From positions 1 through 35,920 of the forward strand of contig JAJYCL010000028.1 in assembly GCA_021778415.1 (NCBI GenBank): a stretch of 35,920 bases of DNA, in the 5' to 3' direction. Of the stretch, positions 16,893 to 35,920 are shown one piece after another (position 1 is the first letter of the stretch; each line of letters starts with the position of its first letter). A program made the position numbers and the translations under genes. The notes beneath the pieces are model-generated. The model was not told where the DNA came from. It made no database searches and saw nothing but the letters and a program-made list of their open reading frames with translations. The DNA comes from a bacterium. GTDB taxonomy: Bacteria; Vulcanimicrobiota; Vulcanimicrobiia; Vulcanimicrobiales; Vulcanimicrobiaceae.

Positions 16893-17869
16893 TGCAGTGT
16901 CGCGGAGCGTTGTAGCGTCAAGACAACCGGGATACCAAATGTGTGCGGGTAGACATCATAGGCGGCAAATGCAGCGAGAATATAGGTCCCTTTTCCCGAG
17001 GTGACCATGCTCTGCATCTTATCGAGCGTCGGAAGAAATGAGAGGGCTTGTACGTTGCTCCCCAGGTACTCGGGGAGCGCCAAGCCTTCCAACGGAATTG
17101 GCAATCCTTGCGTTTTCTGCGGCGCAATTGCCTGTCGCGCAATCTTTGCTTCCAACTGCTGCACCGCAAGATTCATGTTCACATTTTTTCCGGCTGGAAT
17201 CGTCAACGCATTCAAAAACGTCCCTTTACGATACACGAGGCGGTCCGGAACATACTGAATCTGAAAATGAATCCGATCTTTTTCGTAGAGATTCTGATAC
17301 GACGTCGCGAGGAGCAACACATCATCATTTTTGGCGAAGGCAACCGCTTTACGAACATTTGGGCCAAGCAACGCAGCCTGATTTTTGGGTTCGATGAATG
17401 GCTTGAGATCCAATTGCGTATAAATCGAGTTGACGTACGACGCCGCTTTGTGAAGAAAATCGGCCGTCACTTCGTAGCCCGTCGATTCCGACGATCCTTT
17501 GGGAATAACGGCCGGAAACGGGACCATCAATTGCCCCGTCGCAACCACCAAATGCCCGTTATTGAGCTTTTGCTGCAATTCGGTTTCCCGAGATTGCAGC
17601 GCTTCGATACGGCTGTTAATTTCATTCATATGGAAAAACGCCGTTTGGACTTGCTGCGAAGCGAGAATTGCACCGATCGTTACCGCGAGTGCAATTACGA
17701 CGCCGGTGCCGACAGCGATAATCGTTGACGTATATTTTGGACGGATCTTGAATAAGGTGAGGCGCTTGCGTCCGACTTGGTGTCCGACGCGATCCCCGGC
17801 ATAGGCGATCGCCCCAGCGAGAGCGGCGATAAAAAGAACGATCCCCAGGCCACGCATCGTATCTAACAT
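16889..17869 (-). CDS. DUF3084 domain membrane protein
   Basis: 326 residues. The first membrane segment (about 6-25) is followed by the DUF3084 signature AYAGDRVGHQVGRKRLTLFK then IRPKYTST, and a second segment (about 48-72). A predicted coiled coil (about 75-108, with EINSRIEALQSRETELQQKL) leads into a soluble extracytoplasmic domain of about 215 residues. The family is uncharacterised and found mainly in cyanobacteria and other diderm Terrabacteria. Its ATG shares one base with the lptF stop (TAATG at 17869). Its location at the end of the LPS export genes suggests an envelope role. Confidence 0.85.
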   Translation of the reverse strand: MLDTMRGLGIVLFIAALAGAIAYAGDRVGHQVGRKRLTLFKIRPKYTSTIIAVGTGVVIALAVTIGAILASQQVQTAFFHMNEINSRIEALQSRETELQQKLNNGHLVVATGQLMVPFPAVIPKGSSESTGYEVTADFLHKAASYVNSIYTQLDLKPFIEPKNQAALLGPNVRKAVAFAKNDDVLLLATSYQNLYEKDRIHFQIQYVPDRLVYRKGTFLNALTIPAGKNVNMNLAVQQLEAKIARQAIAPQKTQGLPIPLEGLALPEYLGSNVQALSFLPTLDKMQSMVTSGKGTYILAAFAAYDVYPHTFGIPVVLTLQRSATLQ

Positions 17870-18984
17870 TATGTCATTGCCGCCATTCGAACGCGTTGCA
17901 AACCAAAAAACGAGAACAATAAATTAGGCACCCATGCCCAGAACATCGCCGTCGGTAGCAGCGCTTCTCCAAAGTATGAACAGATCGTGGCGACGACGTA
18001 ATAGATAAAGACGATGCCGATTGCAAGGCCGAAACCCAGACTCGCATTTCCGCCACCGCGCGTCTGCCGCATACCGAACGGCACTGCCAACAACGCGAAG
18101 ACAAAACAAGCAAATGGCCGCGCCAGCTTCTCCTGGTAGGTCATAACGTATTTACGTATTTGGTTCTCGGTAAGTTGTCCCGACGCTATAATTTGAGCAA
18201 TTTGCGACCGGCTCATCTGCTCCGGATCGTCATGCTTGATGCGCTGCATGATGCCTGAAGGGGTCTCGCCGAGCGCGACAACAAGACTCGGCGTATGCGG
18301 CTGCTGCGTAACCGTTCCATCGGAATTAAAGCGGTAGGTCGAAACGTCGGTGAGATTCCACTGATTCGCCTCGAAATCGGCTTTGTTTGCAAATGCAACG
18401 AGGGTCGGAGCGTTTGCCTTATCGTATTGAATCAGCGTAACGTTCAATAGCGCTTGCGATGTCGTATCGTATCCGGTAGCGACGGAAATTTGACGCCCCC
18501 CGCCTGGTAGCGGAGCCGTTACGGTAAGGTCGCGATTAAACGCCGAGACATGCTTGATAACGGTATTTTCAATTTCGGTGCTTTGATCTTGGGCAAATGG
18601 CTGCACCCATTCTTGCATTGCTAACGTGACGAATGACATCACCAAGCCGCAGGCAAGGATCGGTAGCACGATGCGCATCAACGCGATACCGCCGGCTTTC
18701 ATGGCAATAATCTCGGATTCGCCCGACAGTCGCTGGAGCATAAGCAAGGTGCCCAAAAGCATCGCCATCGGAATGACCAAAACGGTGGTCGATGGGAGCG
18801 ACCAGAGAAAAATTTCTATCGCCGCCCAGAGCGGCGCATGATCGTTTGTGATGAGTTTCCCGATGTTGAGTATCTCATTGGCTGCCAACAACGATGTGAA
18901 CGCGAGCAAGCCGACAAGAAACGGCCCGGAAAGTTCGGAAATCACATAGCGATCAAGGATCCCTAAGCGTAGCGAACGGGTCAC
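17869..18984 (-). CDS. LPS export permease, LptF/LptG family
   Basis: 371 residues, the usual LptF/G length. The N-terminus LDRYVISELSGPFLVGLLAF is typical. Three membrane segments occupy about 16-120, then a periplasmic beta-jellyroll-like region (about 130-275, containing AMQEWVQPFAQ and RQISVATGYD). Three more segments follow at the C-terminus (ARPFACFVFALLAVPFGMR onward). With LptB it extracts LPS from the inner membrane and hands it to the periplasmic bridge. The GTG start overlaps the lptB stop as GTGA (18981-18984). Whether it is LptF or LptG cannot be decided; only one permease gene is present here. Confidence 0.9.
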   Translation of the reverse strand: MTRSLRLGILDRYVISELSGPFLVGLLAFTSLLAANEILNIGKLITNDHAPLWAAIEIFLWSLPSTTVLVIPMAMLLGTLLMLQRLSGESEIIAMKAGGIALMRIVLPILACGLVMSFVTLAMQEWVQPFAQDQSTEIENTVIKHVSAFNRDLTVTAPLPGGGRQISVATGYDTTSQALLNVTLIQYDKANAPTLVAFANKADFEANQWNLTDVSTYRFNSDGTVTQQPHTPSLVVALGETPSGIMQRIKHDDPEQMSRSQIAQIIASGQLTENQIRKYVMTYQEKLARPFACFVFALLAVPFGMRQTRGGGNASLGFGLAIGIVFIYYVVATICSYFGEALLPTAMFWAWVPNLLFSFFGLQRVRMAAMT

Positions 18985-19721
18985 AGGCGGAAACCTTCAC
19001 CTAAATAGAATGTCCTGGCAATCGGAGACTCCATCACCTCTTGAGCCGTTCCGGCAACTTCAATTCTGCCCTTATTGAGAATGTAGGCTCGATCGACGAT
19101 CGCCAACGTCTCGCGCACTTGGTGATCCGTGATGAGAACGCCGATACCCCGATCTCGCAATTGACGAATCAACGCTTGAATATCCGCGACGGCAATCGGA
19201 TCAATCCCGGTAAACGGTTCATCAAGCAAGAGAAATGCCGGATCCGTGGCTAAAGCCCGGGCAATTTCGACGCGGCGACGCTCGCCGCCAGACAACGAAT
19301 CACCGCGCGCGTTGACGAAATTCGCCAACCCGAATTCGCCTAAAAGTTCGGGCAATCGCCGATCTTGCTCGGCTCGCGAGACACCGTGCTGTTCCCAAAT
19401 GAGACGAATATTATCGCCGACGGAGAGCTTACGAAAAATCGAGTTTTCCTGGGCCAAATACCCGAGGCCGCTTCTCGCTCGCCGATACATCGGGGCGCCG
19501 GAGAGATCGATTTCGCCATCGCTTCCCTCAAGCAATACTCGCCCACCATCGGGCTTGACGAGACCGACGACCATGTAGAATGTCGTCGTCTTGCCGGCGC
19601 CGTTTGGGCCGAGCAAACCAACGACTTCTCCGGTATGAACGTCGGCGCTCACCCCGTCTACGACGGTCCGTTCGCCATACCGCTTGAGCAGATGATCGAT
19701 GACGATGCGCTGTACACTCAT
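18981..19721 (-). CDS. lptB: LPS export ABC transporter ATP-binding protein LptB
   Basis: 246 residues. Walker A GPNGAGKT (38-45), Q-loop YLAQE (88-92), signature LSGGERRRVEIARALA (143-158), Walker B FLLLDEP (163-169), then FTGIDPIAV and switch histidine in LITDHQVRE. The FTGIDP wording after Walker B is diagnostic for LptB among ABC ATPases. It powers LPS extraction by the LptF/G permease encoded next. The ATG start overlaps the lptC stop as ATGA (19718-19721). Confidence 0.95.
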   Translation of the reverse strand: MSVQRIVIDHLLKRYGERTVVDGVSADVHTGEVVGLLGPNGAGKTTTFYMVVGLVKPDGGRVLLEGSDGEIDLSGAPMYRRARSGLGYLAQENSIFRKLSVGDNIRLIWEQHGVSRAEQDRRLPELLGEFGLANFVNARGDSLSGGERRRVEIARALATDPAFLLLDEPFTGIDPIAVADIQALIRQLRDRGIGVLITDHQVRETLAIVDRAYILNKGRIEVAGTAQEVMESPIARTFYLGEGFRL

Positions 19722-20263
19722 TGCAAGCGAACCTTTGTAAAACTCAAATTCGAATCTACACGATTCCCGGTGGCGTGCAATCCTTTAGGATCAGTCATCA
19801 CAACGTGCCCTTCGCCGCGCAGGTGGTCAGTTCCGCGATTCACGATCAGCGTATCGCAATCGAGCACAAGGCCCGTCGAACTCACCGTATGAACATGCCC
19901 TTCGAGCTCGATTTCATCCTTGAGCTGATCCACTATGGCGGTCGGCGCAACGGCGATCAATCGTCCCCCGTGCCCGTCGTGAAAGATAATACGCGCATTA
20001 TGAAGGCGCGATGTCGCCGCACCGGCGACCTGTGTGCCTTCCAAGGAGCGCGCAAAAATTTCATAAAGTGTGCGGCTTCCCCGCGTTTGTACGATATGAA
20101 TCGGGCGATCCGCGGTCCCTTTTCCCACGAAATGCAGCGGCGGAACGCCGCCGGTCGCACTCGCCGTAGGGCTTGGTGATACCGCCATCGGTGATCGTTC
20201 CGGCTTGGGATTACAGCCGATGAATGCGAGCACGACAAAAACGCATGCACTCGTGCGATTCAC
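19718..20263 (-). CDS. LptC-like periplasmic LPS export protein, probable lipoprotein
   Basis: 181 residues from the GTG at 20263, chosen because it overlaps the O-antigen ligase stop as GTGA (20260-20263) and gives a short signal ending in a lipobox-like FIGC (Cys17). The open frame continues further upstream, but that part lies wholly inside the neighbouring gene. The body has LptC/OstA-like beta strands (TLYEIFARSLEG, LKDEIELEGHV, TGLVLDCDTLIVN, LRGEGHVVMTDPKGLHATG). LptC joins the LptBFG pump to LptA. Size and position next to lptB favour LptC over LptA; no separate LptA is seen in the window. Confidence 0.75.
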   Translation of the reverse strand: MNRTSACVFVVLAFIGCNPKPERSPMAVSPSPTASATGGVPPLHFVGKGTADRPIHIVQTRGSRTLYEIFARSLEGTQVAGAATSRLHNARIIFHDGHGGRLIAVAPTAIVDQLKDEIELEGHVHTVSSTGLVLDCDTLIVNRGTDHLRGEGHVVMTDPKGLHATGNRVDSNLSFTKVRLQ

Positions 20264-21462
20264 GCGACCGACTCCACGAGTCCGTGACGAAGCATCGCTA
20301 TCGTTAGCCCCATGAACGGAAGCCAAAGGCCGAACAGGACGATTGAAACCGTGTCGATGAGCCCCTGCGATAGCGTACCTGCAAACGCCGCGATACACGC
20401 AACGCCGAGAAGTCGCGCGCGTGGCGTGGCACGAATATACGCAGCATAGACGTCCGAAGCGAACCGCTTCCACACAAAGAGAAATGCGCAAAATCCGACT
20501 ATGCCGGTTTCCGCCAAGAGCGTCAGATAAATGGAGTGTGCGTGATACGCCGCGGCGTCGGCATCCGGTGCACGAACGAGTTGATAGACCGGACCAAAGT
20601 TAAACGGGCCTACCCCTGTCAACGGAAACCGTTCAATCATGCTCAATGCCGCTTGCCAAATCGGCGGACGAGTGAAATTTTCACTCGGATCGTGATGCGC
20701 ATTAAAAACAATAAATGTTATCCCCATCGCAAGGATCAAGCCCAGAAGAGCGGCGATGCGTCGTCGCCCACGTAACAGCAAAAACCCTGCCACCGCGAGC
20801 TCAACGCCCATCGCCACGAACGCTGTTCGTGAGAACGTCATCGCGAAGGCAATCGAACCGACGCAAACGCTTATCCAGGCCAGGATGCGCAAGAGCGACT
20901 GCTGCGTCGTCACGGCGATTCCGCACCCCAACGGCAAAAGCATCAAAAGATATCCCGCAAGTTCACCAGGCAGAACGAACGTGCCGACAGCACGCCCATG
21001 AGCGATGATATAGAGAGCGTTCGGATGCTTGCTCAGGACGAACACGATGGCCAGGAGCGACGCAATTGTCGAGGTCACAACTAGCGTCCAAAGAAGCGCT
21101 TTTGCCACCTGGGGACGGTCATAAAATCGTTCGACGCCTGTATGCCAAATGATACCAAGACCGAAAATTCCTAAGAACAACAGCCCGCCTCGTGGATCAA
21201 ATCCGAACAGCGCGGCAAGAAGTCCACTTCCTAACCATAGCAATAACGGGACAACGAGGGGATTTTTCTCCCCTTTCACCCGCAATAAGAGGAGCACGCC
21301 ATAGACGGCTTCGCATCCCATGAGAACAAGCAGAAAAATAGCGACGCCCGGCGGAATCAACGAAACGCCCGGAACCGGAATACCCATAAGCATAATAAAT
21401 GATGCGAAAACGGGAAGCGCTGCAAATGGAATCGCGACGGCAATCGGGAGTATCCGTATCAT
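20260..21462 (-). CDS. O-antigen ligase (WaaL/Wzy_C) family membrane protein
   Basis: 400 residues with about ten or more membrane segments. The family's core is visible: FSRTAFVAMGVELAVAGFLL, the loop LTGVGPFNFGPVYQLV, and AYHAHSIYLTLLAETGIVGF with the conserved His before the last segments. The family covers O-antigen ligases (glycan onto lipid A-core) and Wzy-type polymerases, which sequence alone cannot separate. Placement between lipid A and Lpt genes favours a ligase acting at the periplasmic face of the inner membrane. The start overlaps the LpxB-related stop as ATGA (21459-21462). Confidence 0.82.
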   Translation of the reverse strand: MIRILPIAVAIPFAALPVFASFIMLMGIPVPGVSLIPPGVAIFLLVLMGCEAVYGVLLLLRVKGEKNPLVVPLLLWLGSGLLAALFGFDPRGGLLFLGIFGLGIIWHTGVERFYDRPQVAKALLWTLVVTSTIASLLAIVFVLSKHPNALYIIAHGRAVGTFVLPGELAGYLLMLLPLGCGIAVTTQQSLLRILAWISVCVGSIAFAMTFSRTAFVAMGVELAVAGFLLLRGRRRIAALLGLILAMGITFIVFNAHHDPSENFTRPPIWQAALSMIERFPLTGVGPFNFGPVYQLVRAPDADAAAYHAHSIYLTLLAETGIVGFCAFLFVWKRFASDVYAAYIRATPRARLLGVACIAAFAGTLSQGLIDTVSIVLFGLWLPFMGLTIAMLRHGLVESVA

Positions 21463-22601
21463 CGCTGGGCTATCTCGACGATGCGATGCGCAATCACCTT
21501 GCTTGCTCCTCGTCCACCCATGCGTTGACGACCGATCTGCGACATACGATCACGTTGATCCGGGTTTCGCAAGATGGCCTTCATTTGCTCGGCAGCTCGT
21601 TCGAAGGGTCCCGTTAAGATTGCTACGGCGTCGCCAAGAAGGCCCCGTTGCCGCGTTCGATACCAGCCGTGCTCATCGGAATCATAGGCAAGAATCGGAA
21701 TCCCTGCGGCAGCGGCGGCTTCGTTCGCCGTACCGGCCTGCCCAAGCACGATCGTTGCCTGGGTAATCGCCGCACCCAACGGGCCGCGCCAACCGGTAAT
21801 GACGGACGATGCCGATAACGCGATGCGAAATGGAATATGCGGATCCCGATCATCTTGGAGCACCGTAAAGCCTGCGGTTTCCAGCGTGCGCACGAATCGT
21901 TCCTGAGATAAGCCGGGAGCCAATGAGAGAACACCTGAAAGGTTCGGTTCATCCGGAGCTATTCGGCGTACAATCTGTACTAAGTCAACGCAACGATCAT
22001 ACGCATCTTCTCGACTTCCGGGCAACATGAGAATGCGCGGAGTTCCCGCGTAGGGTGGACGCGCGTCATCCGGATCATACAAATCGGCGATACTATTCCC
22101 CGGGGACTCACACGCCACGCCCTTGGCACGCAGATCATCGGCGGTTGCACCGTCGCGAACGAAGACGCTTACTGCCTTACGAAGGATCGTCCGTTCGCCA
22201 GGGCCATACGGCGCAACATAGACGCTTTTTGCGGTGCCGACATAGATCGTCGGCGAGCCTGCTTGCAATGCCATAAGGAGCGCATACGTATCACCAACCG
22301 CCACAACGGCTTGATAGGATCGTCCAGACTTGCGTAGGAACGCACGTTGCGCAAACGTCAACCCAAGTAATCCCGCGCGAAGATCGCGCACGATATTTCT
22401 AAAATTTCCCATTGCGATCAGCCCGCCGCTCGGCAATTGGCGCTGCGGCCCAACGGGTAACGTCGCCGTGTTATCGGGAGGGATTCCAACTAATGCCAAT
22501 TGTTCGCATTGCGCATTCGGATAAAGCGCAAGAACCTCTTTGGCTAAGCGCTCGACAATTGCGGCCTCGCCATTTCCATTAGAGACAAAAAGAATTCGCA
22601 T
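21459..22601 (-). CDS. Lipid-A-disaccharide synthase-related protein (LpxB paralogue type)
   Basis: 380 residues with a GT-B layout. The N-terminus MRILFVSNGNGEAAIVERLA resembles the 'SNGHGED' start of the LpxB-related family (TIGR03492 type) known from cyanobacteria. IYVGTAKSVYVAPYGPGER and LMLPGSREDAYDRC are present, and VLGQAGTANEAAAAAGIPIL is the donor-site loop. It is distinct from the true LpxB encoded two genes upstream in the same array. The donor and acceptor are unknown; a second lipid glycosylation step is a reasonable guess. The ATG shares one base with the preceding stop (TAATG at 22601). Confidence 0.82.
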   Translation of the reverse strand: MRILFVSNGNGEAAIVERLAKEVLALYPNAQCEQLALVGIPPDNTATLPVGPQRQLPSGGLIAMGNFRNIVRDLRAGLLGLTFAQRAFLRKSGRSYQAVVAVGDTYALLMALQAGSPTIYVGTAKSVYVAPYGPGERTILRKAVSVFVRDGATADDLRAKGVACESPGNSIADLYDPDDARPPYAGTPRILMLPGSREDAYDRCVDLVQIVRRIAPDEPNLSGVLSLAPGLSQERFVRTLETAGFTVLQDDRDPHIPFRIALSASSVITGWRGPLGAAITQATIVLGQAGTANEAAAAAGIPILAYDSDEHGWYRTRQRGLLGDAVAILTGPFERAAEQMKAILRNPDQRDRMSQIGRQRMGGRGASKVIAHRIVEIAQR

Positions 22602-23329
22602 TACGGCGCGCCAAGTAACGGCAACAATGCGAATTTTTCTATCAGAAAACGATTCGTCGCCGGATCGCGGCGCAACTCGGTTTGCGAAACATATTGCCCA
22701 TAGGGGCCGGCGTGAACAATTGGAACTCCATTGACAATTTCAGGTTCAAAGAGCGTATCGTGGCTATGGCCACCAAGAATCAAAGTCGTTCGCCCAACGG
22801 CTTGAGCGAGCTTACGATCGAGACGTAATCCCAAATGCGAAAGCACGATGAGCACATCGCGATCGACTAGACGCGACGCGTAGTCGCCAACGACATCCCA
22901 CGGCTGCAAAAATCGCCATCCGAAAACGCGTTCCCATGCGCTCCTTTCCGGATACTGCATAATCAATAACCCTAAGACATGAATACGCGCATCATCGTGG
23001 TCGAAAACTAACGAACGAGCAAAGGGAAGCGTGCGCCCTTTAGTATCGATGAGATTGCTACAAAGGAGAGGATACCGCATCTTGTTCGCACGCGCCGTTA
23101 GGAGTGGGAAAAGATAGTGGAATTCGCGATTACCGATTGCTTGCACATCGTACTTTGCAACATCGATTTCATCGATGATCGGCTCGCTACGGCGATAGAC
23201 GGTTTGACTGCCTCGCAATGAATCGCCGCAGTCAAAAAGAAATCCCGGTGCGGCTTCACGAAGCGATGCAAGGCGACCAGCAAATCCTCGATGGTCGTGA
23301 AGATCGGATGTATGGTAGAGGCGGATCAT
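22601..23329 (-). CDS. Metallophosphoesterase with LpxH-like GNREF motif; candidate UDP-2,3-diacylglucosamine hydrolase
   Basis: 242 residues of calcineurin-like fold. Metal ligands are visible: SDLHDH (D9, H11), CGDS (D36), GNREF (N67), LSHLG (H165), GGHSH (H188, H190). The overall layout and the ending VNGVPIVHAGPYGQYVS resemble 5'-nucleotidase/UshA catalytic domains. However, the usual GNHE is GNRE, with Arg68, as in LpxH (GNRDF). No signal peptide is present, so it should be cytoplasmic, where LpxH acts. It sits between lpxB and the LpxB-related gene, and no lpxH or lpxI is seen in the window. The fold is certain; the LpxH role is an inference. Confidence 0.8.
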   Translation of the reverse strand: MIRLYHTSDLHDHRGFAGRLASLREAAPGFLFDCGDSLRGSQTVYRRSEPIIDEIDVAKYDVQAIGNREFHYLFPLLTARANKMRYPLLCSNLIDTKGRTLPFARSLVFDHDDARIHVLGLLIMQYPERSAWERVFGWRFLQPWDVVGDYASRLVDRDVLIVLSHLGLRLDRKLAQAVGRTTLILGGHSHDTLFEPEIVNGVPIVHAGPYGQYVSQTELRRDPATNRFLIEKFALLPLLGAP

Positions 23330-25677: not shown

Positions 25678-26505
25678 TTAAATGCTCCCTACTCCAAGAA
25701 CGTAATGGTCGCGCAATGCTTTTGTTACTCGAGAGTGCAACGCATGACCTGATTTCACGGCGATCACTTGGGCCTGCAATCGCGCTCCTAACAAGGCAAA
25801 ATCGCCCAACAGATCGAGAATTTTGTGCCGCACCACTTCATTTGGCCATTGCAACGGCTGCATCGGGCCATCGGCATCGAAGACCAGCGCATTATCAAGA
25901 CTGCCCCCCAGCGCCAAACCGCGCGCCTTGAGCGCTTCAACCTCGGCAAGATAGCCAAAGGTTCGCGCCGCCGCGATCTCGCCGGCATATCGCTGCGCGT
26001 CGCAAAGAAAATCGAGATACTGCGCTCCTATCGGAGCGGGGAAATCCGCTACAAAACGGATCCGCAACGCGTCAGCGGGGAGAATGACGACCAGGCGGTC
26101 TCCGTCGGCGAAGAAATGCGCAGTCGAGGGGACGATCGTGGGTGCGGGTTCGCCAAGATCGCGCACTCCCACTTGCTCAAGCAAGGCGACATACTCCCGT
26201 GCGCTGCCATCTAAAACGGGGATCTCCGGGCCATGAACGTTGATGTGGAGATCAGAAACGCCGAATGCGTATAACGCCGACAAGAGATGTTCAACGGTTG
26301 AAACCGAGGCTGCTCCACGACCTATAACCGTTGCCCGCGAGGTTTCGACGACATTCTCGGCCGTCGCCGGAACGTGCTCGTCACCGAGCTCGAACACCAA
26401 TCCGGTTCCGGCAACTGCCGGGCGCAAAACAACGGTTGCCTCGACACCGGAATGTAACCCGATTCCGGCAATCGTCAGCTCACTCGATAGCGTACGTCTA
26501 TTCAT
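25678..26505 (-). CDS. lpxC: UDP-3-O-acyl-N-acetylglucosamine deacetylase LpxC
   Basis: 275 residues from the ATG at 26505, which gives the standard start MNRRTLSSELTIAGIGLHSG; two earlier in-frame ATGs (26526, 26517) would add only a few residues inside lpxD. Zinc ligands and catalytic residues are visible: E72-H73 (TVEHLLSAL), H227 and D231 (RHKILDLLGD), and the late SGHALHS with His254. It catalyses the committed, zinc-dependent deacetylation in lipid A synthesis. It is slightly short at the C-terminus compared with E. coli (305 residues). It overlaps lpxD by 8 bases. Confidence 0.95.
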   Translation of the reverse strand: MNRRTLSSELTIAGIGLHSGVEATVVLRPAVAGTGLVFELGDEHVPATAENVVETSRATVIGRGAASVSTVEHLLSALYAFGVSDLHINVHGPEIPVLDGSAREYVALLEQVGVRDLGEPAPTIVPSTAHFFADGDRLVVILPADALRIRFVADFPAPIGAQYLDFLCDAQRYAGEIAAARTFGYLAEVEALKARGLALGGSLDNALVFDADGPMQPLQWPNEVVRHKILDLLGDFALLGARLQAQVIAVKSGHALHSRVTKALRDHYVLGVGSI

Positions 26506-27532
26506 TCGTCCGCGCATCTTTTGCACGCTCGAGGGCCGTCACGCGATCGAAAAGCTTCGGAATTTTTCGGAGCGCGACTTCAAAACGCAGCCGCTCACGA
26601 TGATCCCGCGCAGGAGCGCCGGAAACGAACGCGCCGTCGGGAATATCGCCCCAAATTTGCGACGCGCCGGCAATGGTTACGCGGGATCCGACGGTGATGT
26701 GTCCCTTAAAACTAGCTTGCCCGCCAACTTGCACATAGTCGCCGATGATCGTCGAACCGGCCATTCCGGTCTGTGCAGCAAAGGCATTGTGTCGTCCTAG
26801 TCGGCAATTGTGCCCGATTTGCACCAAGTTATCGACCTTCGTTCCCTCGCCGATGACGGTGCTTCCCGTTTGCGCCCGATCAACGCAGGTGTTAGCGCCG
26901 ATTTCAACATCGTCATCCAAACGTACATTGCCAACCTGCGGAATCCGCTCGAGTCGGCCATCGACAATCGACCAGCCAAAGCCTTCGCTTCCGATCACCG
27001 ATCCGGGCGCGAGAACGACTCGCGCGCCAAGAACGCAGTCTTCCATGACGGTCGAACGCGGTTGTAACCAAGAATCGTTGCCAATAGTAACCCGAGGGCC
27101 AACGTAGGCACCCGCTTCGATCGTTACTCCGGCTGCAATGGTCGCACCGGGCCCAATACTTGCATGCGGTCCGACGTACACATCGTCGGCGACGCTCGCC
27201 GTTGCGTCAATCGAGGCGTGCACATCACGATACGGTCCGCGCAAACGCGGAGGTCGTGCCAACGCTAACAATGTCGCGAGAGCCGAGCGAGCGGACTCGA
27301 CAACCAACAACGGCTTTGTCGTCGTGATGTCGCCGCCCAGCGCGGAACGCTCAACTAAGATCGCGCCGGCATCGGAGGCCATCGCCGCCGCCAAATACTT
27401 GGCATCGGTCGCAAACGTCATCGTTTGCGAATGAGCATCGTCAATTGACGAAATCGAAGAGACAACGAACGACGCGTCACCGACAATCTCGCCGGCGACG
27501 CGCTGTGCACATTCTGCGAGTGTTCCGAGCAC
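26498..27532 (-). CDS. lpxD: UDP-3-O-(3-hydroxyacyl)glucosamine N-acyltransferase LpxD
   Basis: 344 residues from a GTG start. The N-terminal uridine-binding domain (about 1-100) is followed by a beta-helix of hexapeptide repeats (about 105-310). The signature segments are APGSVIGSEGFGWS, VDRAQTGSTVIGEGTKVDN, and the catalytic His241 in VQIGHNC, then AAQTGMAGST. A helical C-terminal extension (RERLRFEVALRKIPKLF) matches the family. It adds the N-linked hydroxyacyl chain in lipid A synthesis. It lies 17 bases downstream of the last ompH-like gene, in the bamA-ompH-lpxD order common in diderms. Confidence 0.95.
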   Translation of the reverse strand: MLGTLAECAQRVAGEIVGDASFVVSSISSIDDAHSQTMTFATDAKYLAAAMASDAGAILVERSALGGDITTTKPLLVVESARSALATLLALARPPRLRGPYRDVHASIDATASVADDVYVGPHASIGPGATIAAGVTIEAGAYVGPRVTIGNDSWLQPRSTVMEDCVLGARVVLAPGSVIGSEGFGWSIVDGRLERIPQVGNVRLDDDVEIGANTCVDRAQTGSTVIGEGTKVDNLVQIGHNCRLGRHNAFAAQTGMAGSTIIGDYVQVGGQASFKGHITVGSRVTIAGASQIWGDIPDGAFVSGAPARDHRERLRFEVALRKIPKLFDRVTALERAKDARTNE

Positions 27533-27549: not shown

Positions 27550-27954
27550 CTACGGGGACGGAGTCGGCGTCGACTTCTCGGTAATTCCGAGTTCTTTCTC
27601 GACGTCGTCAGTAGTATCTGTCCCACCGTAGCCGACACCCTGTCGTGTTACGGCGAGTTTAAGGCCACGCGCGGCAGCAACTTTCTTAGCGGCATCCTGA
27701 AGCTGGTTTGTTAACGCCAAGGTTATCGCGCCGTACTTTTGCTCCAAGGCGAAAGCCTGCCGACGTTTTTGATCGGCAGAGACTTTCGATGACTGAATTT
27801 TCTGTTCGTCCAGAAAAAGGTTCTGCTGATCGTTTTGATAGACCGGCCAATTTTGGGTAATGCGATCGACATCGACAATCCCAATTGGGCTGCTATTCGA
27901 GCACCCTGCGAGAAGGGCGGCACTAAGGGCGAGAAATAGGGCTTGCTTTTTCAC
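27550..27954 (-). CDS. OmpH/Skp-like lipoprotein, single module
   Basis: 134 residues from a GTG start overlapping the previous stop as GTGA (27951-27954). A lipoprotein signal ends in LLAGC (Cys18). The mature part begins IGIVDVDRITQNWPVYQN, the characteristic first strand and helix of OmpH/Skp. It continues with a helical arm of about 60 residues and ends with the strand KLAVTRQGVGYGGTDTTDDV, typical of the Skp body. A short P/T tail ends the protein. Skp-type chaperones hold unfolded outer-membrane proteins for BamA. Lipid anchoring is unlike soluble E. coli Skp. It is the third OmpH-type gene in a row. Confidence 0.75.
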   Translation of the reverse strand: MKKQALFLALSAALLAGCSNSSPIGIVDVDRITQNWPVYQNDQQNLFLDEQKIQSSKVSADQKRRQAFALEQKYGAITLALTNQLQDAAKKVAAARGLKLAVTRQGVGYGGTDTTDDVEKELGITEKSTPTPSP

Positions 27955-29249
27955 TCGTGTAGGCTTTCGATGGCTTTGGTGACATCGGGGGTCAAATCAT
28001 AGCCCCCTGGGGTTGCGGATGGATCTGCAATGGCGACACTCAGGCCGCGATCCTTCGCAATTTTTTGCGCGGTTTGCGTCACTCGGGCGACAATTTTCGC
28101 ATAGAGATCTTGGCGCTGTTGCTGGACGGTGAGTAATTGTTTGGCGGCATCGGCCGAGCCAAGATCGCCGCCGTTTTTTAGTGCGGCGTACTCGACTTGA
28201 ATGTCCGTTTTTGTTTTATTAAAGGCATCCATTGCGGCCTGAGCATCGGCGTTAAACTTATCGGAGAACTCCGATTGAATCGATGCTAAACGCTGTTTAG
28301 TTGCATCGGATAGATTCGCCGGCAACGTCGCCGGCGCCATGTTTTTCAGGTTTGCGACCACTTGCGATTGACGGCTTTGCAATTTCGCCGCTGTCGCTTG
28401 TTGCATCGCCGCCGACTCTCGAGCCATGCGCTGATTCATCGTCGAAAGCAACGTTTTTCTATAAGCATCAAACTCTTGTGAATCGGCTTTTCTCAACGCA
28501 GTAAGATTCGCAGCTTCCCGCGCGTCGATTGCCTTTAGTTTCGCCTGTATGTCTTTACGCGCGGCGTTATCGAGCGCGAGGTTGGCCATTCGCGTTTGAA
28601 GCGCAAGTCGCTCGCCCGCGTCCTCAGACGATTCTTTCAGCGATAAACTCGATTCGCGTTGAGCGAGTTCCTCGCTTTTTGCTTGCAGCTTACTACTAAT
28701 TTCTTTTCGCAACTGATCCATCGTTGCTTTCATCGTCGCGCTATCTTGCGCCATCACATCGTTACGATAGGCTTGCAGATCTTGTCCGGCTTGCATATAG
28801 GCCGCTTGTTGTTTTCCGGAAGCCGACGCTGCGAGGGAGTTGGCGATATTTGCGGCGTTAGGAACGCCTGCTGCCGCAAGTGCCTGGCCGATTGCGATCG
28901 ATTCCTCGTGCAAATACTGATTTTGCTTACCGCTTATATATTTTTGTGTTTGTGCTTGAGCGGCCGTAAGCTGGGCGTTTAGCTTGTTGATTTGGGTTTC
29001 GATTTGGGCAGCAGTCAAATGAGCAGTCGTTCGAGCCGCAAAATTCAGCGCGGACAACGACTGATCAAGAGCCTGCACCTGAGGGTACATTGGGTCGTGC
29101 TTGGCCGCTTGCGCGACGTCGACATACCCAATGCCCTTGATATTTGGCGCGTTGACATTGACGTGGGAACATCCCGCGACAAGCACAGCCAACGCCAAGC
29201 CCGAAATACGACGGATCAAAGTGCTACTTGCCGAGCTCGTTTTGGACAT
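27951..29249 (-). CDS. Long coiled-coil OmpH/Skp-like lipoprotein
   Basis: 432 residues from the ATG at 29249, which overlaps the upstream gene by 26 bases; a TTG at 29219, just after the upstream stop, is an alternative that also keeps the lipobox. The signal ends in LVAGC (Cys27). IGYVDVAQAAKHDPMYPQVQ is an OmpH-type opening, and the C-terminus (TAQKIAKDRGLSVAIADP, then GYDLTPDVTKAIESL) is an OmpH-type closing strand. Between them lie some 300 residues of Ala/Gln/Lys-rich helix, far longer than a Skp arm. It may be an elongated periplasmic holdase or spacer; the role is inferred. Confidence 0.7.
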   Translation of the reverse strand: MSKTSSASSTLIRRISGLALAVLVAGCSHVNVNAPNIKGIGYVDVAQAAKHDPMYPQVQALDQSLSALNFAARTTAHLTAAQIETQINKLNAQLTAAQAQTQKYISGKQNQYLHEESIAIGQALAAAGVPNAANIANSLAASASGKQQAAYMQAGQDLQAYRNDVMAQDSATMKATMDQLRKEISSKLQAKSEELAQRESSLSLKESSEDAGERLALQTRMANLALDNAARKDIQAKLKAIDAREAANLTALRKADSQEFDAYRKTLLSTMNQRMARESAAMQQATAAKLQSRQSQVVANLKNMAPATLPANLSDATKQRLASIQSEFSDKFNADAQAAMDAFNKTKTDIQVEYAALKNGGDLGSADAAKQLLTVQQQRQDLYAKIVARVTQTAQKIAKDRGLSVAIADPSATPGGYDLTPDVTKAIESLHE

Positions 29250-30027
29250 CTTGAGTGATGTTCGTTCCACCATAGACCACATCGCCTTGATCGATGATCA
29301 GCAAAAGATTTTTCTTTTGAGCGATACTGGCATTTGCGGCTTTGAGCCCGTCCAACACCGGCTGGACCATTTCTTTTTGCTTTGCCTTTATGACTTTGTC
29401 ATAGTCGGCAGCTACGGCTTTTTTGGCCGCATCGTCTTTGGCCGCCGCAAATCGTTGTTGATACACTTTTTGCGTATCGTTCACGAATTTTTGGAAGTCC
29501 GCATTCGCTTTTTGAACTTTTGGAAGATTATCAATCGCGCTCTGATCCACGAAGCCGATTTCCGATGGTGGCGGCGTTGCCGAAGGCTGAGCAATGGCCT
29601 GCCCTCCCTGCAGAAGCCCGATAACATCTTTCGTGATATCGACACCACCATAAACGATGATGCGCTTATCGACGACGATCGAGAGCTTCTTCGTTGCACT
29701 CACGTTGGCGATTGCAAGCTGAGCACGGGCGAAAATCGGCCCTACGAGCTCCTGCTGGCGATCATTGAATTTCTGCTGAAACTCAAGTGAAATTGTTTGG
29801 CGTTCGGAATCAGATTTTGCCGCCTTAATACGCGCCGCAAACTGTGCATCCAATCCTTGCTTGAATTGAGCAAGTTTCCGATTTGCATCAACGAATGCCG
29901 GCAGGCTTCCGACTTGGGCCTGATCGATGAAGCCGATATCGGTGAGATCTGCCGCAATTGCATGCGGTGCCAGCAATGCAGTGGCAACAAAAAGTGCGAG
30001 TCCGAAGCGAAGAAAGCGAAGTTTCAT
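29224..30027 (-). CDS. OmpH/Skp-like periplasmic protein with two tandem modules
   Basis: 267 residues from the ATG at 30027, which has AAGGA upstream and gives a clean signal peptide (1-26, ending AIAA). A longer open frame reaches into bamA, but its extra residues are unlike any signal. Two OmpH modules are present: residues 31-140 (IGFIDQAQVGSLPAF through VVDKRIIVYGGVDITKDV) and 157-265 (IGFVDQSAIDNLPKV through IIDQGDVVYGGTNITQDV), joined by a P/S/T linker. Each has the strand-helix arm-strand layout of Skp. A protein with two modules could act as a built-in dimer in the chaperone trimer-like arrangement. It follows bamA directly. Confidence 0.8.
   Translation of the reverse strand: MKLRFLRFGLALFVATALLAPHAIAADLTDIGFIDQAQVGSLPAFVDANRKLAQFKQGLDAQFAARIKAAKSDSERQTISLEFQQKFNDRQQELVGPIFARAQLAIANVSATKKLSIVVDKRIIVYGGVDITKDVIGLLQGGQAIAQPSATPPPSEIGFVDQSAIDNLPKVQKANADFQKFVNDTQKVYQQRFAAAKDDAAKKAVAADYDKVIKAKQKEMVQPVLDGLKAANASIAQKKNLLLIIDQGDVVYGGTNITQDVQNELGK
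29233..29937 (-). repeat. Internal duplication of the OmpH module
   Basis: The two modules, encoded by 29608-29937 and 29233-29559, share opening (IGF-V/I-DQ) and closing (VYGG-x-[DN]-IT-x-DV) motifs at about the same spacing of 110 residues. The middle arms differ, so the duplication is old. Confidence 0.7.
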
Positions 30028-30049: not shown

Positions 30050-32308
30050 TTAGAAGCTTTGGCCGATGCCAAAGCTAGTATGCGTTCCGTCTGCTCCCTT
30101 GGCGAAATCGAGTCGGATAACTTGATTACCAAGTAGCTGAGGAATTGAGAAGCGTAGCCCGGCACCGTAGTCATAGTTGTAGTTCCAGTTACCCGGATAG
30201 CTGAGGATACGATTCGTATTGGGATCCAAAAGCGGCGAGGCTCCTCGGATGCGGTACGCACCTTGATCGAAAAACACGGCTATTTGGAATTTGCGATCAG
30301 CGGTGAGCGGTTTACGAATCTCGGCTTGGAACAATCCCGTATCGGTTCCATAAAACACGCTGTTGTAACCGCGTAATTGTTGATCGGAGAACGTGTAAAG
30401 CGCACTATAGGGAAGGACACCCGTCGAGAGTCTCCCCTGGAAATGCAACCCGAGCGTCGAGTTTTTCAACACCGGGAAGAAACGCGTTGCATCAAGCTGC
30501 GTCTGCGTAAAGTTGAAGTTCGAGCCAATCGACGGACTTGAGATCGTCTCACCGAAATTGATCGTATGGCCCTTCGTTGGGTCGAAGTAATCGTTCAACG
30601 TGTTCGTCGAGCTTCCCAGCGTTACCGTATAAAGATTATACGGAAGGCCGGTATTCGTATTAGCAATGGACGTAGCCGCGATACCAAACGATGTCGCGCC
30701 ACTCGTCGGATTGATATTCGAGAGCGGCCCCGGCGTTGGACCAACGACGACGTTGGGTTGAGCCGACTGGAAGTAGTATGGTGACGGGACAGTCGTCGAA
30801 GATTTAATCGACGAAAGACTCGTGCCAATCGACAACTGCGTGAAATAATTCAGGCGTCGACCGACTTGCAACGAAATGCCCGTGGATTGCGATTGCGCAG
30901 TCGCATAACTTCCGCCGATTTGCGATCCCGTCGAGACGAGCGTCACCGGAATCGACGACGTGGGCTGGTTGATTGACGGGATGCCGCCGCCGTTGCCAAC
31001 CTGATAGATCGGATAGAAGTACGTCGAACCATTGGCGAAGATCGAGGCTCCAAGACTATAGAGCTGCGATTTTTTCGTCTTGCCGAAGTAGGGAATCGAG
31101 GCTGACAACTGCGTGGTATAGGTACGTGATCCGCGTTGCAGCTGCAACTGCAGATTGTTTCCCGTTCCATGCAAATTGTTGTCCGAGTACCCCAGTGTTC
31201 CGTACAGCCCTTGGCCGGTAATGCCGCCTTGATACCCTACGCCGACTTGCGCCTGCGCGGTCTTCTGCTCGGTTACGTGCCAAACGACGGCGACGAGATC
31301 GGGGCGCTTGGGATCCGGACCGGGTTTGACATCCGGCTCGACTTTCGAGAAGAAGCCCAGGTTGTTGAGACGCTCGTAATCGCGTTTGATTCCATCTTTG
31401 GTTAATAGCGATCCCGGTTGCAGTTGCAACTGGCGACGGATGACATCGTCTTTCGTTCGCTCGTTGCCGGTGATCTGTACGACCGCAACGCGTGCAACGT
31501 CGATCGTGTACTGCACATCTGCGGTACCGGCTTTTTGGTTGATCGTATCTTGCTTGATCCCGCCTTCGAAATTGCCGATGTACAAACCGGCTTTTTCGTA
31601 GAGCTTGTTAAGGGCTTCGTAATCCTTATCGCGCATCGAATCGGAATACTCGACGCCGGGCTTCACCGATATCGCCGCCAAAATTTTTGCCTGCGGCAAA
31701 ATGTACGTTCCGGAAAGTAATACTTTGGCGACGGTGAGACCCTCGATTACGTCGATCGTGACCACGCCCGTTTTAGGGTCGATGGAAAGATTCGTAATAT
31801 GCGATGGGAGCTGGCCTTGGTATCCGATCCGCTCGTAATAGGAATTGATCTTTTGAAGATCCTGACGAAACGTATCGGTATTAAAGACCTGGCCGACCGT
31901 CGTATCCATAAGGGCTGCAAGCGTATCGCTCGGCACCTTTTTGTTTCCGACAAACGTGATTTTCGTCACGACCGGGTTTTCGATCACGCGGTAGGTGATG
32001 GCGACGCCATTCCCACGTGGGCGAATCAGCGGGGCGGGAACGGCAGCGAAATATCCCAGCGCGTTGATTCGCGCCAGATCGCTCTGAATAACCGCGGGTT
32101 CGTACGGTTGACCGGGACGAACTTGGATCACGTCCATAATCGTCTGAGTCGGAACGTGAAGATTCCCCGAGATATCGACCGAAACAATTCGCGGTACATC
32201 AGCCGAGCGTACCGGCTGCGCGAATGAAACGATGAGGCAGATAATTGCGAGTACGAAACCCGCACTCACCAGAAGTGCGCGACGTGCGCGCGCTTGGTTA
32301 ACCGTCAT
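30050..32308 (-). CDS. bamA: Outer membrane protein assembly factor BamA (Omp85 family)
   Basis: 752 residues. A signal peptide (about 1-36, ending VRSA) precedes four POTRA domains at roughly 40-112, 113-190, 191-270 and 271-348, each starting with a V-x-I-x-G-N/T-like strand (IVSVDISGN, VTKITFVGNKK, VAKVLLSGTY, VAVVQITGNERT). E. coli BamA has five. The C-terminal barrel begins AQAQVGVGYQGG, has the lid-loop motif LRGYNS (QLRGY in place of VRGF), and ends in Phe (GIGQSF). It folds and inserts outer-membrane proteins. A GGGAAG-type Shine-Dalgarno lies upstream of the ATG. It follows tamB after 75 bases and precedes the ompH genes. Confidence 0.93.
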   Translation of the reverse strand: MTVNQARARRALLVSAGFVLAIICLIVSFAQPVRSADVPRIVSVDISGNLHVPTQTIMDVIQVRPGQPYEPAVIQSDLARINALGYFAAVPAPLIRPRGNGVAITYRVIENPVVTKITFVGNKKVPSDTLAALMDTTVGQVFNTDTFRQDLQKINSYYERIGYQGQLPSHITNLSIDPKTGVVTIDVIEGLTVAKVLLSGTYILPQAKILAAISVKPGVEYSDSMRDKDYEALNKLYEKAGLYIGNFEGGIKQDTINQKAGTADVQYTIDVARVAVVQITGNERTKDDVIRRQLQLQPGSLLTKDGIKRDYERLNNLGFFSKVEPDVKPGPDPKRPDLVAVVWHVTEQKTAQAQVGVGYQGGITGQGLYGTLGYSDNNLHGTGNNLQLQLQRGSRTYTTQLSASIPYFGKTKKSQLYSLGASIFANGSTYFYPIYQVGNGGGIPSINQPTSSIPVTLVSTGSQIGGSYATAQSQSTGISLQVGRRLNYFTQLSIGTSLSSIKSSTTVPSPYYFQSAQPNVVVGPTPGPLSNINPTSGATSFGIAATSIANTNTGLPYNLYTVTLGSSTNTLNDYFDPTKGHTINFGETISSPSIGSNFNFTQTQLDATRFFPVLKNSTLGLHFQGRLSTGVLPYSALYTFSDQQLRGYNSVFYGTDTGLFQAEIRKPLTADRKFQIAVFFDQGAYRIRGASPLLDPNTNRILSYPGNWNYNYDYGAGLRFSIPQLLGNQVIRLDFAKGADGTHTSFGIGQSF

Positions 32309-32383: not shown

Positions 32384-35300
32384 TTACATCCCGGCGGGCC
32401 CTGTTCGCGTTGTGGGGGGTTGCTCCTTGCTACTTCGGCGCCATCCAAAGAGCCGGCGGAGGGTAAAACTAAAGCCCGACCCCGATTGCAAGGGGATTGA
32501 AAGCGACCCATTCGAGGCGAAAAAGACGGGGCGAAGGCCGGCCGAGACCGATGGGGCGACCGTTTGGGTATAGAACGCCAGCTGTGCAATCGTCGAGGGC
32601 TTTGGGGCATACTCAATGCCCAGCGTCTGAAGACTCACCAGCCCGAATGTCGAGCTATAGCTTAAGGAAAAGCCGTGCGAAAGCGGCCGATTCACCGAAA
32701 CCGCCAAATTGCCAAAATAATCGAACGAGAGCCCGACATTCCCAAGGCCGAGGGATTTTCCGAGGGCATTCCCTAGCGGCCCCAGGAGAGCCGAGGTAAA
32801 TTGCGCGTTGACAAGGTTAAAGGCTTCCTGACCAATCGTCGTCCCGCCCCCGCCGCGCAGACTCGCCGAGGAGCCGCCGACGCCGGCAAGCCCGCCGAGC
32901 GGGGTCAGCATTGCCAATAACTGATCCCGGGAATACCCGGGCGGGTTGGACTGTAAATCGACAGTGAGATGATCGATGGGACCGGAAACGGCCACGGTGA
33001 TCTCCGTCGCTCCGAAGGCTGAGCCCGCAGAACTCGACTCCGTGACCCGCGTCTGCGCCGAGGCCGTGAGATTTGGAACCAAGCCGCGGTCGGGATGAAA
33101 GGCCACCCGGGCGCGAACGACGCTAAACGCTCGGTCAAGGTACGTCAGCGTCCCCCCCGAGGCGACAAACGATCCCTCGAGTGTCGGTTGTGCCAGCGTC
33201 CCGCGCAACGCAACCGAGCCCGTTCCGGCGATATCGAGGCCGGCGCCGTACCCGCTTCCTACGACACGAACGTTCTGTCCGGCCCGAAGAGCGAGATCAA
33301 AGGCCAAATCAAACGCGCGAGCTCCCGTTGTCGCGACCGCCGGAACAAGAAATGCCGCAAACGGAACCGCGGCATTGCTGATCGCGATATCGCCCGAGAG
33401 CAACGCTTTCGAAGAGGCAGCGTGGGTGAGAGCCACGTTGAAATCGAGTGCCCCCCGACCGACGCCGGGTATATCCAGACGAGCCCCTTGCCCGCGAAGG
33501 TGGGCGCTGTACGGCATTCGTTTCGGATCATTGAGGCCCGCGGCGAGATCTACGATTCCGTCACCACGAACAACCCCGCCGCCGACCATTGCGTGAAGCG
33601 ACGAAATGGAAATCTTCGTCCCTGAAAAGAGCAGACCGGCTCCGATCTGACCGATGCTCGTTGCGTTGTATGGCCCGGCGTAGCTCCCATCGCTGAGGGA
33701 AATGTGGCCGATTGCCTGGGGCGAGCCCACCAAGCCGGAGAGACCGATTCGCCCATTGAGCTGGCCCCCGAGCGTTGTTTTCGATCCTAAAAGCGGAGCG
33801 AAGACCTTGGCGTGAAGTTTATCGACGGCCAGATCGAACGACAGCCGATCAGTTGCGCCGCCGATGGAGAAGGGCCAAAGACGCAACGGCAGGCTCCCCG
33901 CCAATGTGACCATACCCGAGGTGCCGAAATTTGCTTCAACATCTTGGACTTGGAGTTTCGAGCCGACCAGTTTCCCCGATCCCACGAGGGACGGCAAGAC
34001 AACGCCATAGACATCGAGATTCTTCGCATCCACTGCTCCGGTGAATGTGGGTTTCGCCGTTGTTCCTCGGATGAGAACCGTCGAATCGACGGAGCCCGAG
34101 ATGGGCAAAACGCGGTGCGACGAACGAGCGATGACATCGTGAATCTGCGCGGCGTGAACCGCGACGGTAAGAGCAAGCGGCGACGTCGGTTGCCATCCGA
34201 AGCTACCGCCGGCCGTCGCCTGCAGTCCTACCGCGCTCAAGGTTGCGTTACTCAAGGTAAAGCGATCGCCGGAATCCGACAAACCAACCGAAAGTTGGTC
34301 GATGGGCGTGGCTCCAAACGACCCGCGATGTAACACCGCATTTGCCTGTAGCTGAAGATTCGGCAAACGTCCGTGAGCCGTCACCTTTCCATCCAGCGAA
34401 CCCAGCAGCGGAACAGACGCCGCACCGACAAGCGTACGGTATAAGGAAAGATCCAAGTCCTTCGCCGTAAGCGTTGCATCGTACCGGGCCGAGGCTAAAA
34501 GACGCTCCAGCCGCGCCGTCGGCGCAACGCTCAACGAACCCTGAACGGCAAATTGTCCATGACGCCCATGGACGGCAAGCGTGCCATCGACCGTATCGTG
34601 CGACGAGGTCCATTTGGCCGCAGTATGCCCGAACGGAAATCGACGAAACTGCAGGTGATGAATATCGATGACGCCGTCGCTTGAAATGCGATGTTGCGTT
34701 GACAGCAAGGCGACATCAAGTGAGCCGTTGCCGCCAAACGTATCGCCGGTATCGAAAAGATCGTTGAAATCCGCGAGGTGTGCCGTATGAGCAACCACCG
34801 CTAGCGCGCTGACGTCCCTATGCGAAAGGGCAAAAAATTGCGCGTTCGTCGTACCGACACGAAGCGTTCCGTCGGTGACGGTGACTCCCTGAGGGTCGGC
34901 AATCAGTGTCGCCCGCGCGTCATGGACGGACTGCCCGAGAACCAACGAGATGGGAATATCGACCGGTCCATCGACCAGCGCGCGAGGCCCCCGTCCGGTC
35001 ACATGAAAATCCGACCGAAACGTTCCCGAAAGCGCATTCGTGCGCACCCCGAATGCGTGTACGACCGTCGCGAGATCAGCAGCCGGAACATGCGTCGTCA
35101 GGTCGTAACTCGGGGACGGTTGCCCGAGACTCCACACCCGGCCGGCAAACGCCGCGGGGAGCCCATCGATCCGTCCAAGACCATGGGCAACGCTCAACGT
35201 CGTGCCCCGCAACCCTACTGCGGCACTTCCGGCAACCGCGTATCCACCGACGCGACCATTACTCAAGGACGCAGTGAAATCGGCATTTTGCGGATTGGCC

Positions 35301-35920
35301 GAATCGACCGTTCCGAAGGCGGTCACGCGTCCGGTCGCATCCCCGGGTCGCAAACGTCCCAGGCTTGCCAGATCGATTCCCCGAGCAGCAAAGGATATCG
35401 GACCGCCTGAAGCTCCTCCGAGCAGACTCACGCTACCACCCCCGGCAGAGGCAAAAAGCCGATCGACGACCGTTGCACCATGAACAAACTCGACGTGACC
35501 GGATATGCCCGTCACAGGAACTCCGTCGACGGCAACGCCTTGCAACCGCGCCTCCGGAACCCAGACCCCGAGCCCCCGGCTATCCAAGGCGAGAGTCACC
35601 GGACCGTCCGATTGTCCAGTCATCGTCGGCGAGCCCAAGGGCAGGGGAAATGCCGCCAGATTGGCATGCGCCCGACCGGCGAGAAGCAATTGGCCATTTT
35701 GCGAGAGGCCCCGTCCAACGAAATTTCCCCACGGAAAATCGGCAACGACCGGATCGATGGCGAGCGTCTGGAGACTCCCGCTTGCGCTTCCGTTTATCCG
35801 TGTGGCGGCCATAGAACCCACCGTGCCGCCGGTGAGCTGGGCCCGCATCGCGAGGGCGCTCGCGGCTCGGTGCGTTCGCAACGCAACGGCCGCATCGAGC
35901 CGACCGGCAAAAGGAGCATC
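32384..35920 (-). CDS. tamB: Translocation and assembly module protein TamB (DUF490), 5' end outside the window
   Basis: 1178 residues are visible and the frame is open to the right edge, so the N-terminal anchor is missing. The sequence is a long series of beta strands rich in G, S, A and V, as in AsmA/TamB-type lipid-conducting proteins. The C-terminal DUF490 region is clear: GGTLTYLDRAFSVVRARVAF, then VAVSGPIDHLTVDLQSNPPG and YSRDQLLAMLTPLGG, and the barrel-like ending FSLSYSSTFGLVSLQTLGIE. TamB spans the periplasm and helps outer-membrane protein assembly or phospholipid transport. The last 25 residues (RRSSKEQPPTTRTGPAGM) are a basic, unstructured tail. It heads the array seen here and is followed by bamA. 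Confidence 0.9.
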   Translation of the reverse strand, partial: DAPFAGRLDAAVALRTHRAASALAMRAQLTGGTVGSMAATRINGSASGSLQTLAIDPVVADFPWGNFVGRGLSQNGQLLLAGRAHANLAAFPLPLGSPTMTGQSDGPVTLALDSRGLGVWVPEARLQGVAVDGVPVTGISGHVEFVHGATVVDRLFASAGGGSVSLLGGASGGPISFAARGIDLASLGRLRPGDATGRVTAFGTVDSANPQNADFTASLSNGRVGGYAVAGSAAVGLRGTTLSVAHGLGRIDGLPAAFAGRVWSLGQPSPSYDLTTHVPAADLATVVHAFGVRTNALSGTFRSDFHVTGRGPRALVDGPVDIPISLVLGQSVHDARATLIADPQGVTVTDGTLRVGTTNAQFFALSHRDVSALAVVAHTAHLADFNDLFDTGDTFGGNGSLDVALLSTQHRISSDGVIDIHHLQFRRFPFGHTAAKWTSSHDTVDGTLAVHGRHGQFAVQGSLSVAPTARLERLLASARYDATLTAKDLDLSLYRTLVGAASVPLLGSLDGKVTAHGRLPNLQLQANAVLHRGSFGATPIDQLSVGLSDSGDRFTLSNATLSAVGLQATAGGSFGWQPTSPLALTVAVHAAQIHDVIARSSHRVLPISGSVDSTVLIRGTTAKPTFTGAVDAKNLDVYGVVLPSLVGSGKLVGSKLQVQDVEANFGTSGMVTLAGSLPLRLWPFSIGGATDRLSFDLAVDKLHAKVFAPLLGSKTTLGGQLNGRIGLSGLVGSPQAIGHISLSDGSYAGPYNATSIGQIGAGLLFSGTKISISSLHAMVGGGVVRGDGIVDLAAGLNDPKRMPYSAHLRGQGARLDIPGVGRGALDFNVALTHAASSKALLSGDIAISNAAVPFAAFLVPAVATTGARAFDLAFDLALRAGQNVRVVGSGYGAGLDIAGTGSVALRGTLAQPTLEGSFVASGGTLTYLDRAFSVVRARVAFHPDRGLVPNLTASAQTRVTESSSAGSAFGATEITVAVSGPIDHLTVDLQSNPPGYSRDQLLAMLTPLGGLAGVGGSSASLRGGGGTTIGQEAFNLVNAQFTSALLGPLGNALGKSLGLGNVGLSFDYFGNLAVSVNRPLSHGFSLSYSSTFGLVSLQTLGIEYAPKPSTIAQLAFYTQTVAPSVSAGLRPVFFASNGSLSIPLQSGSGFSFTLRRLFGWRRSSKEQPPTTRTGPAGM

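Follow-up and report, generated by a model that had tools for sequence, protein, structure and literature searches.

What three consecutive genes of the Skp family do between bamA and lpxD, and why the middle one is so long, are the questions raised by this region of a genome of the Vulcanimicrobiaceae. What is known of outer-membrane biogenesis comes, to our knowledge, almost entirely from Proteobacteria, in which barrels are carried to BamA by the soluble proteins Skp and SurA. Diderm Terrabacteria, as far as we know, lack the Bam lipoproteins and often also LolA and MlaC. The window (the whole stretch of DNA analysed, 35,920 nucleotides) contains an operon with the gene order TamB-BamA-P1-P2-P3-LpxD-LpxC-FabZ-LpxA-LpxB, tightly spaced and with overlaps:

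32384..35881, minus strand: TamB (Pfam TamB, 8e-31)
30050..32308, minus strand: BamA, directly upstream of P1 in the same operon (Pfam POTRA 2e-46, Omp85 5e-22)
29224..30027, minus strand: P1, secreted tandem OmpH/Skp protein of 267 aa (ORF, Pfam OmpH, AF2, Foldseek)
27951..29249, minus strand: P2, named SkpL, lipoprotein of 432 aa in which a single OmpH head carries a very long helical hairpin (ORF, AF2, orthologues, profiles)
27951..27954, minus strand: 4-nt overlap of the P2 stop and the P3 start (GTGA, from the sequence)
27550..27954, minus strand: P3, single-module OmpH/Skp lipoprotein of 134 aa with a GTG start (ORF, Pfam OmpH 1.4e-7, profile match)
26498..27532, minus strand: LpxD, next gene downstream of P3 and start of the lpx block (Pfam LpxD, 1.6e-10)

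The P1 and P2 genes share 26 nt. Since the 4-nt overlap between P2 and P3 is also present in 23 of about 48 loci of relatives, translation of these two genes is likely coupled within the operon. Searching the genome (an assembly of 2.59 Mb with 95.6% completeness) gave no OmpH gene besides P1-P3, and no Bam lipoprotein was seen in the window operon. The genome contains one SurA-type domain, and therefore Skp is not the sole candidate for a periplasmic chaperone. Beside lpxB, the window shows an ORF (22601-23329) encoding a metallophosphatase-like protein (DLHDH...GNRE...SHLG...GGHSH) with no Pfam match at 1e-5, which could be a candidate UDP-diacylglucosamine hydrolase of lipid A synthesis. 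Genes encoding an LptF/G permease, an ABC ATPase and a Wzy/O-antigen ligase follow the lpx block (17869-21462).

It is practically certain that the three proteins belong to the Skp family, and the earlier reading of this DNA as four OmpH modules in three consecutive genes is borne out by the ORFs, Pfam and profile comparisons. Against Pfam OmpH (PF03938, curated cut-off 32.4 bits), P1 matches in three stretches above the cut-off (E=1.6e-17), P3 reaches 32.2 bits, 0.2 below it (E=1.4e-7), and P2 alone lies under it with 23.1 bits (E=9e-5); 39 of the 47 P2 orthologues match OmpH at E<=0.01, the best at 3.5e-10. P1 contains two modules in tandem:

29602..29949, minus strand: P1 module 1, residues 27-142 (profile match to module 2, E=1e-36)
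29227..29571, minus strand: P1 module 2, residues 153-267 (AF2 model, profile comparison)

Both had been proposed in the earlier note, and the AF2 model of P1 (pLDDT 92) shows both. In Foldseek the best eight PDB matches of P1 are all Skp/OmpH (E 0.04-0.6, probabilities 0.66-1.0). P3 was likewise correctly taken as a single-module lipoprotein: it has the lipobox LAGC and matches the second P1 module (P1C) at E=5e-22 in profile comparison. The arms of the P1 modules and of P3 are short, about 27-40 residues per leg, and that of P2 is several times longer, which does not agree with the proposal of a size-graded set. Like Skp/OmpH/HlpA of E. coli (1SG2, 1U2M; PF03938), the P1 modules and P3 show the head motif, a short hairpin and C-terminal strands, and the bamA-lpxD neighbourhood and export are also shared. 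The differences are the doubled module of P1, in tandem, the lipoprotein nature of P2 and P3, and the P2 arm, several times longer and with a conserved tip.

All three proteins are predicted to be exported to the periplasm. P1 shows a signal peptide ending in AIA-ADL and no lipobox by sequence prediction; six cysteine matches found with a loose rule in P1 proteins of the class lie inside the hydrophobic part of the signal peptide, e.g. LLACLIAAPAVL, and were rejected as lipoboxes. P2 and P3 contain lipoboxes:

29169..29180, minus strand: P2 lipobox VAGC, Cys27 (Cys in 29/30 class orthologues)
27901..27912, minus strand: P3 lipobox LAGC, Cys18 (kept in 9/9 sampled class orthologues)

The 30th P2 class orthologue has a mis-called start, MLAGC. 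The sequences thus support one soluble and two tethered members, as suggested before. Outside the class, P2 shows a lipobox-like cysteine in 7/17 proteins and otherwise an N-terminal hydrophobic segment, although some of these TM-type anchors could be cleaved signal peptides instead. From these N-termini, SkpL seems to retain a membrane anchor that is a lipid in some relatives and a TM helix in others. The genome also has a match to LspA. As TM forms exist and 38 genomes of the phylum gave no LolA match, a location of SkpL at the inner membrane is favoured. The missing LolA is no proof of it, since loci with Halanaerobiales-like gene content encode lipoprotein SkpL, and Halanaerobiales have LolA (PMC5007114).

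P2 consists of a head split between both ends of the chain and an arm inserted between them:

29070..29144, minus strand: N-terminal part of the P2 head (GYVD ... HDPMY), residues 36-60 (profile match to the P3 N-end; 'HP' signature)
28587..29087, minus strand: N-terminal leg of the P2 arm, residues 55-221 (AF2 helices 55-73, 80-126, 132-209 and 211-221)
28050..28568, minus strand: C-terminal leg of the P2 arm, residues 228-400 (AF2)
27954..28049, minus strand: C-terminal part of the P2 head, residues 401-432 (Pfam OmpH C-end; P3 profile match)

In profile comparison the C-end of P2 matches P3 at E=1e-12 and the N-end at E=1e-5, and the 'HP' head signature is present in nearly all SkpL. The AF2 model (pLDDT 87, pTM only 0.59) shows head strands at 39-43 and 403-407 and a single hairpin, 55-221/228-400, with the turn at 222-227. 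The OmpH ends and the lipobox were described correctly in the earlier note, whereas the insert has about 345 residues (55-400) and not 300. Its expectation of a Skp fold holds for P1, with two modules and Skp matches, and more weakly for P2: the head strands are there, yet the top 50 Foldseek matches of the whole P2 model are generic coiled coils only, with no Skp. Apolipoprotein and Nsp8 matches of the P2 profile in the PDB were rejected as matches of helix composition, and a nested extra OmpH module was ruled out as the origin of the arm, which alone has no OmpH match. P2 fits a group, SkpL, defined by an OmpH head at both ends, a long helical insert in which each leg has 100 residues or more, a tip motif in mid-chain, a gene position downstream of BamA between an ordinary Skp and LpxD, and a lipid or TM anchor at the N-terminus. 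Each leg of the P2 hairpin has about 165 residues and would measure, if straight, about 23-25 nm (1.5 A per residue), which is about the width of the periplasm. Breaks in the helices at 127-131 and 303-314 could let the arm fold back. Among 47 P2 orthologues the N-terminal part of the arm ranges from 167 to 210 residues (median 179), and the two legs show little variation in length and change in step with each other (r=0.66, without correction for kinship).

The turn of this arm contains a conserved motif, roughly LNLxLKL:

28557..28619, minus strand: P2 arm-tip motif, residues 211-231, AGERLALQTRMANLALDNAAR (conservation; tip profile)

Residues 211-230 of P2 reach 3.06/3.03 bits of conservation, level with the head (3.09/2.97), and most of the shaft has 1.8-2.7. 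When profiles of head-less arms from Eremiobacterota and Negativicutes were compared, the match, centred on the tip stretch, scored 40.4; the highest score among 60 column shuffles was 16.2, and the reversed control gave 10.7. A profile built from the tip only was tried on 13 held-out long-arm proteins, and 10 of them match it mid-chain with 11.1-32.2 bits, where the background does not exceed 5.1; the three highest scorers appear to be close kin of profile members and the others are more distant. This profile scores at least 11 in 45/48 eremiobacterial P2 orthologues, some of which were used in the profile, and the motif is located at 0.45-0.52 of the chain in the orthologues. It is absent from P1 and P3 (maximum scores 3.4 and 7.0). 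Folding of the turn, and not docking, could also explain this conservation.

The trio was searched in 50 further loci covering 15/16 families of the phylum search (presumably Eremiobacterota/Vulcanimicrobiota). It is present in 30/30 loci of the window's class, the window counted, and in 18/18 loci of other families with a contig reaching far enough; the arrangement, for which the earlier note had proposed a search of related genomes, is thus phylum-wide, with 48/48 readable loci. In one of the loci (L065) P2 is split by a frame change. In families f13, f15 and f16 (L074, L075, L077-L081, L084) one more short OmpH lipoprotein gene is inserted, which brings the array to four genes with five modules. 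Family f9 (L198/L199; near-complete genomes G010 and G006) shows BamA followed by one divergent OmpH-related protein of 522-527 aa; here the trio is lost or merged and, since this family manages with one merged protein, it is not indispensable everywhere. A contig search with a single P2 sequence as query gave no matches. Outside the window's class, loci L069-L082 and L084 contain a conserved gene of about 590-610 aa between LpxD and LpxC, often with '...LGGQVVFRI...' after the signal peptide.

A search with deep-branching P1 sequences also drew Selenomonas and relatives. All 28 of 28 Negativicutes loci show a single-module Skp, a long-arm SkpL of 319-387 aa and a short Skp3 of 142-159 aa directly before LpxD. 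The SkpL legs have 110/141 residues there, judged by sequence landmarks. Compared with the Negativicutes long-arm profile, P2 of Eremiobacterota gives E=3.7e-19 (3.8e-26 globally), and the matches of P3 (4.6e-7) and P1 (7.5e-5 and 1.8e-3) are much weaker, all being single-comparison E-values. By these profiles SkpL is a distinct branch of the Skp family. An equivalent trio occurs in numerous further diderm Bacillota. In a sample of 119 Bacillota genomes, the majority presumably monoderm, about 13 show matches that span most of the length of the SkpL model, and some of these sequences had gone into building the model. In two loci of 32-33% GC and Halanaerobiales-like gene content (L154, L202), members 2 and 3 both have lipoboxes, just like P2 and P3 of the window. 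No full-length SkpL match was found in 39 Cyanobacteriota or 41 Bacteroidota genomes; the profile matches obtained there cover the C-terminal head or short stretches, and were rejected as ordinary Skp or unrelated helices.

Three Skp copies have been described for Negativicutes and Halanaerobiales clusters (PMC5007114, PMC5491611), and the claim that most diderms have one skp beside bamA fails for these diderm Firmicutes, as it does for Bacteroidota, which have skpA and skpB (PMC10994853). The diderm Firmicutes array (vpar_0528-0530) shares with the window the order TamB-BamA-Skp x3-LpxD, and the order ordinary, long-arm, short was found here in Selenomonas and others. It differs in its single-module first member and in a middle member that is usually TM-anchored, compared with lipid-anchored in the window. 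Bacteroidota likewise show two Skp copies beside LpxD (L127), and SkpA of the T9SS extended translocon (8GL8) is the top structural match of P1, but SkpA and SkpB have short arms. The openly accessible literature that was searched gave no description of the long arm or its tip. New beyond the earlier note are the equivalent trio in diderm Bacillota and the conserved arm-tip motif.

A tree built from 105 heads and 114 columns places the SkpL heads of Eremiobacterota in a single group (99/90) and almost does so for P3; in it the two P1 modules (P1N and P1C) are not cleanly separated, and Bacillota Skp1 and Skp3 show no clean groups. Because of this grouping the paralogues appear older than the phylum; the presence of the cluster in both phyla may be due to vertical descent or to transfer between them. 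Within the window's class, P1N and P1C (29227-29949 and orthologues) pair together (98/97), and in other families they are apart, on 114 columns only, which suggests concerted evolution or two duplications. Among the loci read, the tandem duplication inside P1 is found only in Eremiobacterota.

A role of the trio in outer-membrane assembly is probable, and trimer formation and chaperoning of OMPs would be expected from its family and location. The preferred reading, to which about an even chance is given, is a divided, membrane-tethered Skp set working with the adjacent BamA and TamB, in which P1 would act as a secreted double-module Skp, P3 as a short lipid-tethered Skp, and SkpL as a fixed guide and not a free shuttle. 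The SkpL head would sit on the membrane via the N-terminal lipid (a TM helix in relatives), the hairpin arm, with about 165 residues per leg and roughly 23 nm if straight, would reach across the periplasm, and the tip would dock on a far-side partner, e.g. the BamA POTRA domains, TamB or a nascent barrel. Spanning with tip docking, which is drawn from geometry, is put forward tentatively, at rather less than an even chance.

The main rival, which is unlikely, makes SkpL structural and not a chaperone, an envelope scaffold or spacer holding BamA/TamB or linking the membranes. An arm of fixed length with a conserved tip would be apt for a spacer, and there is a precedent in SkpA, a structural component of the type 9 translocon independently of chaperoning (PMC10994853). 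BamBCDE homologues are absent in diderm Firmicutes (PMC5007114), and MlaD of Veillonella parvula is a transenvelope bridge (PMC10665443). The last resembles SkpL in idea only, as a fixed bridge replacing a soluble shuttle in diderm Terrabacteria; protein and cargo are unrelated. However, P1 and P3 look like ordinary Skps beside BamA, and the partner of a spacer is only conjectural. Less likely again are ordinary Skp paralogues divided by cargo size, the long arm forming a larger cage for large barrels and the lipid keeping it near the membrane; the three products do differ in size and E. coli Skp tentacles enclose cargo (PMC10994853), but caging predicts neither a sequence-specific conserved tip nor a near-constant arm length. 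That P2 and P3 serve, for instance, LPS export or the lipid A pathway of the downstream genes, and not OMP assembly, is suggested by lpxD-lpxC-fabZ-lpxA-lpxB directly after them and is very improbable, as conservation is equally strong on the bamA/P1 side and for lpxD, and the Bacteroidota Skp of L127, for which we know of no LPS or lipid A role, also adjoins LpxD.

Under the preferred reading of a tethered Skp set with a fixed guide, a conserved, membrane-tethered and very long Skp with a specific tip is a concrete candidate for barrel delivery in diderm Terrabacteria. SkpL would be testable in Veillonella parvula, which is genetically tractable and for which three skp genes in the cluster are reported. 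A wider proposal, somewhat doubtful, is that SkpL may be an ancient periplasm-spanning OMP guide, anchored at one membrane with its tip to BamA-TamB at the other, a tethered counterpart of Skp that a common ancestor of Eremiobacterota and diderm Bacillota would already have had and that the pathway of the Proteobacteria type would lack. For the debate on whether these phyla descend from a last common ancestor with two membranes, SkpL provides a further character.
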